Source: Rhizobiales bacterium IMCC20636
Lineage (GTDB): Bacteria > Pseudomonadota > Alphaproteobacteria > Rhizobiales > GCA-2746425
Assembly (NCBI GenBank): GCA_016865015.1
Contig: CP018226.1
Coordinates: forward strand, 4,557,001 to 4,621,000
DNA length: 64,000 nucleotides
Reading direction: 5' to 3'
Shown: positions 55,246 to 57,914 of the stretch, one piece after another
How the letters are laid out: every line of letters starts with the position of its first letter
Numbering within the stretch: the first letter of the stretch is position 1
Made by a program: the position numbers and the translations under genes
The notes under the pieces: model-generated
Database searches by the model: none
What the model saw: only the letters and a program-made list of their open reading frames with translations
Told to the model about the DNA's origin: nothing

Positions 55246-55347
55246 GTAGCCTCATTCCGCGTCTTGCGTAACACGCCCCACCTTGTCGGATGGGCCAAAT
55301 TGGTTCATCTAGGCTTTCAATATACAAATCATGCGCCAGGAGCCTTT

Positions 55348-56142
55348 ATGAAACTGTCCACCAGGTTGGAATTCGCCACAGACCTTGCAATCAGGGCCGG
55401 GAAATTTGCCCACGATACATTCAAGGTGCTTGATACGCTGACGATTGAGAGCAAAGGCCATCACGACCTCGTTTCGGAGGCGGACCGGGACACTGAAACC
55501 CTGATACGCGATGCCATCAATGCAGCTTATCCTGATGACGGGATTGTCGGCGAAGAGCATGGCCGCAAATATGGCACCAGCGGCTTTGACTGGATCATCG
55601 ACCCGATTGACGGCACAGCAAATTATCTGAGCGGAATCCCGCATTGGTGCGTGGTCATTGCTTGCGCCCATGAAGGATTACCGGTTGTTGGCGTCATCCG
55701 TGATCCGAACACCGAGGAAACCTTCACCGCATCCAAGGGCCATGGGGCACAGGTTAACGGCAAGGTGATGCATATTGCCGATGGCACCACACTGTCAGAC
55801 GGCTCCATCGCAACAGGCGCTTCCGGCCGTTCCGACCGGGAACAGGCCGCCGCGCTGGTACGCGAAATTCTGATCAATGACGGCATGTATTTCCGCTCGG
55901 CTTCCGGCGCGCTGATGCTGGCCTATGTCGCATCAGGCCGTCTGCTTGGTTATGTCGAAGATCACATGAATTCATGGGATTGCTTTGCAGCCCTCCTGAT
56001 GATCACCGAAGCCGGCGGTCGGCATCAGACGCTTGATCCGGACAAATCGCTTGAAAACGGCACCATGCTGGTTGCCGGTAACACCGACATCTATCCCATA
56101 CTGGCATCCATCGCAGAGCGTGCCTTCAAACCGAAGGCATGA
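55348..56142 (+). CDS. Inositol monophosphatase-family phosphatase
   Basis: A 264-residue protein with the family motifs: SEADRDTETLI, GEEHG (metal), IIDPIDGTANYLSGIP (the DPIDGT metal signature) and NSWDCFAALLMITEAGG (WD pair). AGGAG is seven bases before ATG 55348. It would dephosphorylate a sugar or inositol phosphate, or a histidinol-phosphate-like compound, with Mg2+. It follows the SIS-domain gene by about 100 bases. Confidence 0.93.
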   Translation: MKLSTRLEFATDLAIRAGKFAHDTFKVLDTLTIESKGHHDLVSEADRDTETLIRDAINAAYPDDGIVGEEHGRKYGTSGFDWIIDPIDGTANYLSGIPHWCVVIACAHEGLPVVGVIRDPNTEETFTASKGHGAQVNGKVMHIADGTTLSDGSIATGASGRSDREQAAALVREILINDGMYFRSASGALMLAYVASGRLLGYVEDHMNSWDCFAALLMITEAGGRHQTLDPDKSLENGTMLVAGNTDIYPILASIAERAFKPKA

Positions 56143-56145
56143 ACC

Positions 56146-56423
56146 TAGAGCCTTTCAGTTTTATCCGGAAACATTTGACCGGATTGGCGCGTTTGCTGGC
56201 AAGGCACAGGCCACGCCGTGGTCTTTACGACCACAAGTGGGCTGTAACGATGTCCAGCGAGCGCGCAAAGCCGGCCTTCGGTGCCCCGGAACAGCCCACC
56301 AGCGGCGTTAGCCAGCTTGCCCGATGCGCCGCCCCCGATACTTTTGGGCGCTGCGCTGACTGCCTTGGCTGGATGAACTGTTTCGGGGCATCAAATTATT
56401 CCGTATAATCGTGAAAGGCTCTA
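56146..56423. mobile_element. MITE-like inverted-repeat element
   Basis: A 278-base element bounded by perfect 12-base inverted repeats (TAGAGCCTTTCA at 56146-56157 and its complement at 56412-56423), extended imperfectly to about 35 bases per end. It has no gene. A possible TA target duplication is seen at both outer edges. Inside is another inverted pair, TGCCCCGGAACAG and CTGTTTCGGGGCA, and small palindromes near 56212 and 56225. The right end supplies the TAG stop of the FGGY kinase gene. A diverged copy of one end lies at 1239-1282. Confidence 0.7.
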
Positions 56424-57914
56424 CGTATCAAGCGCCGTCTTGAGCGCGGGATATAGCGCCAGATATTTTTGATAGATGTCATCATAGGCCAGCATGGCAA
56501 CAGGGTCGGGCTCAATCAGACGCCCGGGCCTGACCATCGCCTCGATGCCTTCATCAATGGTGGCAAAATGTCCGGCTCCGTGGGCTGCCAGAATGGCCGA
56601 CCCGAGAGACGGACCGTCGGTTGAATCTGGAATACGCAACGGAATACCCGCCGCATCAGCATGTATCTGCATCCACAGATCAGAGCTGGTCGCGCCGCCG
56701 CCAACCACCATTTCGGTGCCGTGATAACCGCCCTTGGCAAAGGAATCCAGAATGGCGCGGGTGCCCAGCGAGATGCCTTCCATGATGGCGCGGAACACAT
56801 GATGCGGCTCGTGTGCCAGCGTCAGACCGGTGATTGCGCCGCGTGACAAGGCATCGGTATAAGGTGTCCGGTTGCCCTGGAAGTGATCCTGTACGATAAC
56901 ACCCTCTGATCCGGGCGGCAGCAGTGCGGCTTTGCGGTTCATCTCCTCAAAGTCCAGCTCGCCGCCAACAAAACGCTTCAGCCAGTTGATGATCGAACCG
57001 GTCGATGTCTGGCCGCCTTCGATGATATAGCGGTCCGGATAGACGATATCGGCATAGGCACCCCACATGCCCTTGGTGTGGAACGGCTTTTCGGTGACAC
57101 CAAATTGCAGATGCGATGAGCCTGTGATCAGGCACAATTGACCGGGCTTGGAGACACCGAGACCAATCATACCGATCAGCGCATCGGCGCCGCCCTGCAC
57201 CACTTTTGTGCTGGTCGTGAGGCCGAGGGCCTCAGCCGCCTTTTGTGTCAGATTGCCCACGACTTCGCCGGGTGCTGCCACCCGTGACGGCCATTTTTCA
57301 ACAAGGTCAGCCATGCCAAGTTTGGTGACCATGGTTTCCGCCCAGCCGCCGCCCCTGTTGTCATAATGCCAGCGCAAGCCGACATTGTTCAGCGACGCGC
57401 AGCGTTGACCGGTCAGGCGCAGGGTCAGAAAATCCTGATATTCGCAGATGGTGACGGCCTTGTCGTAGATGTCCGGTTCGTTGCGCTTGATCCACAATGC
57501 TTTGGGGATCATCCATTCCGCAGACACCGGCCCGCTGCCATTGCCATTGAATTTCAGGCGTTCGTCGCCGGTTTCCAGAACCGCAGCAGCCTCGTCGGAG
57601 GCACGCACATCCATCCACATCAAAGCCGGGCGCAGCGCATTGCCAGCGCCATCCAGAGCAACCACGGTGCAGCATGTGGTGGCATAGGCCATGGCTTCAA
57701 TCTGGTCGGGCTTCAAGCCTGTTTCAGCCAGACAGGCGCGCGTCGCCTTGCACAGACAGTTCCACCAGTCATCGGGCTGCTGCTCGGCACGGGCCCCGGG
57801 CGAAAAAGTGGTTTCGTAAGGCACTGCGTATGACGCGATGCAATGACCTTTGATGTCATAGATGCGCGCGCGCAGGCTCTCGGTGCCGCCATCGGCCGTC
57901 AGAAAATAAGCCAT
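56421..57914 (-). CDS. FGGY-family carbohydrate kinase
   Basis: A 497-residue kinase: the N-terminal phosphate site TADGGTESLRARIYD, then VVQGGADALIGMIGLGV, SIINWLKRFVGG and the C-terminal VVGGGATSSDLWMQIHADAAGIPL. The FGGY family includes xylulokinase, ribulokinase, erythritol kinase and LsrK. ATG 57914 has GGGGAAG upstream. It ends operon 4, 42 bases after the E2-like gene. Beside a ketose 3-epimerase its likely substrate is a ketose. The stop codon lies in the MITE-like end, so the C-terminus could have been altered by insertion. Confidence 0.9.
   Translation of the reverse strand: MAYFLTADGGTESLRARIYDIKGHCIASYAVPYETTFSPGARAEQQPDDWWNCLCKATRACLAETGLKPDQIEAMAYATTCCTVVALDGAGNALRPALMWMDVRASDEAAAVLETGDERLKFNGNGSGPVSAEWMIPKALWIKRNEPDIYDKAVTICEYQDFLTLRLTGQRCASLNNVGLRWHYDNRGGGWAETMVTKLGMADLVEKWPSRVAAPGEVVGNLTQKAAEALGLTTSTKVVQGGADALIGMIGLGVSKPGQLCLITGSSHLQFGVTEKPFHTKGMWGAYADIVYPDRYIIEGGQTSTGSIINWLKRFVGGELDFEEMNRKAALLPPGSEGVIVQDHFQGNRTPYTDALSRGAITGLTLAHEPHHVFRAIMEGISLGTRAILDSFAKGGYHGTEMVVGGGATSSDLWMQIHADAAGIPLRIPDSTDGPSLGSAILAAHGAGHFATIDEGIEAMVRPGRLIEPDPVAMLAYDDIYQKYLALYPALKTALDT

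Follow-up and report, generated by a model that had tools for sequence, protein, structure and literature searches.

A mobile MITE-like repeat of Alphaproteobacteria with a conserved core of two inverted units and changing terminal repeats

The described repeats closest in kind to the element presented here are RUP, ERIC, Correia/NEMIS and CIR (PMC2229807). RUP of Streptococcus pneumoniae is 107 bp long and its mobilisation by IS630-Spn1 has been proposed, ERIC/IRU of enterobacteria is 127 bp long and has a 7-bp contiguous inverted repeat in the table of the review, and the CIR repeats of Caulobacter and Brucella carry a conserved GANTC motif with no terminal inverted repeat listed (PMC2229807). 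Like RUP, the present element is a short non-coding repeat with a TA target and IS630-like ends. For RUP, we found neither a conserved two-unit core nor an exchange of ends described, whereas the core of our element is conserved over many genera and its partner is located in a sister species. ERIC/IRU shares the TA duplication, the ability to form hairpins and the position adjacent to genes, but its RNA effects are orientation-dependent whereas our element shows no orientation preference at stop codons; judged by the description of ERIC, the two also differ in size and host group. The CIR repeats resemble our element in being intergenic repeats of Alphaproteobacteria that are depicted with two arms and have TA at their termini. 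Judged by the description of CIR only, the element differs in possessing a terminal stem and in lacking a conserved GANTC, none of which was observed in our alignment of element copies (A4). The IS630/Tc1 insertion sequences share the TA duplication, the CTAG-like target and a matching end in the sister species, but the element contains no transposase and its core is, by eye, unlike the interior of the insertion sequence.

The window, which is the whole stretch of 64,000 nucleotides analysed (C1:4557001-4621000 of a 4.79 Mb genome), contains this element as 278 non-coding bases that separate two convergent genes (Table 1). Its arms (56143-56178 and 56391-56426, 36 nt each) are 81% complementary and the outermost 12 bases of the arms, TAGAGCCTTTCA and TGAAAGGCTCTA, are perfectly so. 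This agrees with the initial annotation, which had described terminal inverted repeats of 12 perfect and about 35 imperfect bases, TA at both edges, inner nested inverted pairs and no gene inside. The inner pairs are real, as the + strand RNA folds at -152 kcal/mol while shuffled sequences reach -99.8 +/- 5.3 (z -10); the - strand folds at -144 kcal/mol (z -8.6). No conserved reading frame was observed in the element, whose full-length copies are 265 and 278 nt long, and a coding element was rejected because these forms differ by 13 nt and have no frame in common. Furthermore, no promoter-like or intrinsic-terminator-like site (a GC-rich hairpin followed by a T run) was found in positions 56000-56600.

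Table 1. Features of the element and of its two neighbouring genes (positions in the window)
Feature	Positions	Strand	Remark
Whole element including the TA at each edge	56146-56423	+	covariance model match 56173-56395, E 4e-51
Target TA, left copy	56146-56147	.	single TA in the empty sites of three other copies
Target TA, right copy	56422-56423	.	on the - strand, the TA of the kinase stop codon TAG
Left terminal inverted repeat	56148-56173	+	ends of the family match the end of an IS630-family element of the sister species
Right terminal inverted repeat	56396-56421	-	
ATTTGA strand, stem at the base of the two arms	56173-56178	+	pairs with 56391-56396
Unit A, hairpin arm	56179-56274	+	constrained as a single strand on the + strand
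Unit B, hairpin arm	56281-56391	-	inverted homologue of unit A; constrained single-stranded on the - strand
TAG stop codon of the kinase	56421-56423	-	target TA and first G of the element
FGGY-family carbohydrate kinase gene, ends in the edge of the element	56421-57914	-	
Inositol monophosphatase-family gene, convergent with the kinase	55264-56142	+	stops 3 nt short of the element

A DNA search of the focal genome gave about 40 matching places, far above chance, and at least 20 of these copies retain both ends and are about 265 nt long, about 278 nt long or internally deleted. The end pattern was observed at 70 sites in this genome against 0 for the reversed control. The element is therefore short, free of a transposase gene, bounded by terminal inverted repeats and dispersed in many copies, as are bacterial MITEs. 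When the joined flanks of 15 copies were searched against four congeneric genomes, contiguous orthologous sites without the element were found. Three of the orthologous empty sites, in the sister species, have a single TA at the junction, which demonstrates insertion with duplication of the TA. With further copies in the genome and such empty sites in relatives, the earlier reading of the sequence as a MITE proved largely right. Among 30 copies from several genomes, a pyrimidine (C or T) precedes the TA in 25 and a purine (A or G) follows it in 23, giving a YTAR target of which CTAG is the most frequent context.

Several damaged or rearranged forms were also noticed. A degenerate, truncated left end of the same family (TAAAGTCTTTCTCGTTCATACGGAAGCATTTGACCGGGTT) lies at positions 1241-1285 of the window, with the right half absent nearby. 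Two focal copies, L007 (left flank) and L014 (right flank), have a common flank of about 40 bases in opposite orientation, containing the hairpin GGCTCCATGCGAAGATGGAGCC, and the ends beside it read ACAAGCC in place of TAGAGCC; recombination between copies or a second repeat are possible origins. In genome G040, three 34-base remnants (L205, L210 and L214) consist of one complete end and the last bases of the other, and an arm of L219 is apparently inverted. These four are deletion and inversion forms typical of long hairpins. In genome G096, the left end of the element and its mirror image together form L336, a near-perfect palindrome of about 138 nt, and an equally short match is present at three places in this genome.

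The fold of the core was examined in an alignment of 52 copies from about 28 genomes. Two-sided changes were observed in 88 of the 101 base pairs, and 91.9% of the cells are paired, against 72.9% after shuffling and at most 39.7% when the structure is slid. The covariation score is 0.527, whereas shuffling gives 0.173 and sliding no more than 0.101; part of the same copies had served to derive the structure, which gives the structure an advantage but not one of this size. In those pairs that are mostly Watson-Crick, a G-U exception favours a fold of the + strand and an A-C exception a fold of the - strand. Collapsed by genome, the counts of G-U to A-C are 28:28 in the outer repeat, 60:14 in arm A and 15:54 in arm B (Fisher 5e-13 for arm A against arm B, where P is only a guide as the sequences are related). 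In other orders, 20 copies counted as a separate set gave 25:8 in arm A and 6:18 in arm B (P 2e-4, again only a guide). The outer repeat thus behaves like double-stranded DNA, and each arm like a single strand that is read from its own end towards the centre.

In addition, a profile of arm A matches arm B on the reverse strand in 48 of the 52 copies (best E 1e-8, with no shuffled sequence below 1.2) and therefore the element consists of two homologous units in inverted orientation. The likeness of the halves is weak by pairwise alignment and becomes clear only with the profile. A count on a narrower alignment had pointed to an RNA of the + strand when only the fold of that strand was considered, but a single functional RNA of 265 nt was rejected since arms A and B have opposite wobble biases. 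An AACG/CGTT pseudoknot between the arms was likewise rejected, as these bases are near-invariant and most simply represent the same AACG motif in both inverted units. Sites of the attC kind were rejected by eye since the motif does not fit.

With a covariance model of the 210-nt core, the family was observed in 50 of 297 genomes of the order, representing 36 of 122 genera. A sample spanning the class yielded it in 36 of 385 genomes, most of them belonging to other orders, while the kinase loci searched for named hosts gave two weak hits only. The element has no match among the Rfam 15 covariance models or in plasmid and phage collections, and no description of the family was found in the literature, where our coverage of subscription papers was limited. 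The matches L318-L326 (in G659, G605, G376, G349, G573 and G479) are confined to the half of the model that represents arm B; some of them have ends such as TAGCCCGCATTTCTCACCAGG, and they are probably further subfamilies. The initial annotation had named a structured RNA or terminator as what the sequence would be instead of a MITE if it had no other copies in the genome and were conserved at this locus across species. This is partly true, as the core is structurally conserved throughout the class, but the element is mobile and present in many copies and is therefore both mobile and structured.

In the sister species (G002), we identified as a candidate for its mobilisation an IS630-family element of 1088 bp that contains HTH and DDE_3 reading frames. 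Its end, TAGAGTCTTTCACGTTTAGACGGAAGCAT, is identical to the focal copies at 27 of 29 positions and has the same TA tip, with one end compared and this being the single matching case. The inner 22 bases agree at 21 positions with the focal copies, while the arms of other genomes agree at 11.6 on average. Such a match makes mobilisation by an IS630-type transposase, as judged from these end sequences, well supported for this genus only. Neither the focal genome nor G001 contains a homologue of the G002 transposase, and pairing of ends revealed no transposase flanked by the ends of the element in the focal genome. The full-length insertion sequence with the same ends that had been anticipated was thus found in the sister species and not in the focal genome. 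The one IS630-type DDE_3 protein of the focal genome (L152) was rejected as the partner because its element has differing ends (TACCAACGG) that do not match, and the IS5-type elements of this genome were rejected because their ends differ.

Four of these IS5-type elements (L156, L157, L158 and L159, at about 3982809, 1884217, 4061336 and 1416956 of C1) are alike, with TA-flanked ends TAGGGTCAGGACC/TAGGCTCAGGACT, and L159 adjoins a damaged copy of the repeat (L034). Another, L155 (at about 3334849), has the ends GAGCCCGATTT, which we take to resemble those of the IS1031 group.

In other genomes, IS630 elements with TAGAGC-like tips have inner 22 bases that do not match the sampled local copies, and no IS630 DDE_3 protein was found in five element-rich genomes (G024, G028, G040, G047 and G096). 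One of these, G040, has 42 near-identical ends; a hidden insertion sequence was rejected as their source since those examined are copies of the element or deletion forms.

Bacterial MITEs are usually viewed as ends with disposable middles that are bound to one transposase, and their ends are expected to be more alike than their cores. The opposite was observed here, as 1163 of 1326 comparisons gave a lower likeness for the ends than for the cores. As an example, some copies within each of the genomes G024, G041 and G266 have cores that are 59-80% alike and ends that are only 35-48% alike. The ends differ between and within genomes and yet are matched inside each copy, where the left arm is 92% identical to its own right arm and 52% identical to the right arms of other copies.

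We interpret the element as a non-autonomous MITE of the IS630/Tc1 type with a persistent core and changing, transposase-facing ends, and assign this reading a probability of roughly 85%. Insertion occurs at TA, usually in the context YTAR and often CTAG, with duplication of the TA, and an IS630-type transposase would have acted in trans on the ends. Most likely, the core is what the lineage hands down, under selection as a fold of a single strand that is read from either end towards the centre, while the ends would track whichever transposase of this type is available. A possible extension, which we offer tentatively, is a class-wide lineage independent of any one transposase, in which the two inverted strand-specific units are the core and the terminal repeats are exchangeable adaptors, both replaced at once for different IS630-type transposases. 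Each unit would then act on whichever strand is entered from the side of that unit, in the simplest case within the nascent transcript of the adjacent gene, and the element would supply both a stop codon and an RNA 3' end in either direction.

It is also conceivable, but in our view unlikely, that the ends merely drift under the pairing constraint of the outermost stem, that their likeness to the one IS630 end is local and that mobilisation is due to another enzyme, which reads the folded core. The greater conservation of the core, the dissimilar arms of copies within one genome and the lack of a matching IS630 in most genomes are in line with such drift. However, the outer helix lacks the strand bias in wobble pairs that the inner arms possess, as expected for double-stranded recognition, and the close match to the G002 end with its TA tip, together with the TA duplication and the CTAG-like target, fits IS630.

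At the focal locus, the right end was correctly described by the initial annotation as forming the last bases of an FGGY kinase gene, the identity of which was confirmed, and the terminal TAG is indeed composed of the target TA and the first G of the element. In the suggested comparison of C-termini, the kinases of G001 and G002, which lack the element, have their own TAG at the same place and therefore the length of the protein is unchanged. ERIC copies overlapping stop codons were reportedly noted by De Gregorio in 2005. We surveyed 57 copies from many genomes for frames open over at least 100 codons. On 35 sides such a frame stops precisely at the edge TAG, while the other two frames combined account for 11. 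A gene is ended by the TAG of the element in 13 of 22 focal copies and in 19 of 35 copies elsewhere. The stop is supplied by the left side in 17 cases and by the right in 18, and no orientation preference towards the gene is seen.

As TA is the target and the first base of the element is G, insertion into a TAG or TAA stop leaves a working TAG, and such insertions are therefore harmless and kept. Among non-coding sites in 178 kb of the focal genome, with genes taken from simple ORF calls, stop codons account for 10% of TA, 23% of YTAR and 42% of CTAG sites. Active targeting of stop codons, as opposed to tolerance, would agree with the excess of focal copies at exact gene ends over the YTAR share (P 2e-4), but the CTAG share alone reduces the excess to P 0.08 and selection removes insertions inside genes, and we consider targeting improbable. 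Target preference and selection against insertion within genes can account for most of the excess, and a residue is possible.

We infer that the unit is under selection as a single strand, of either RNA or DNA. In nascent RNA, the fold may protect or end transcripts that enter from either side, as the RNA from either neighbouring gene would meet each unit first on its constrained strand. Entry from either side fits the position at gene ends and the even use of both sides for stop codons. A fold that acts as single-stranded DNA at the ends during transposition would fit equally well. An immobile structured RNA or 3'-end element fixed at gene ends, such as a bidirectional terminator, would share the strong fold, the covariation in nearly all helices, the location, often at the ends of genes, and the wobble constraint that falls on the strand carried by the transcript entering from each side, but is very improbable given the dispersed copies, the absence of a promoter-like or terminator-like site and of an Rfam match, the equal use of both sides and above all the empty sites in sister species, which refute it as a full account and leave it as a possible function of the core of a mobile element.

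The covariance model makes this family searchable, where Rfam has no family covering it. The habit of inserting at stop codons illustrates how a compact genome can take up insertions undamaged. Furthermore, a middle that is conserved over many genera while the ends vary suggests selection on the core. This raises the question of the role of the folded unit, and the opposite strand bias of the two arms limits the possible answers to an activity directed from both ends towards the centre.
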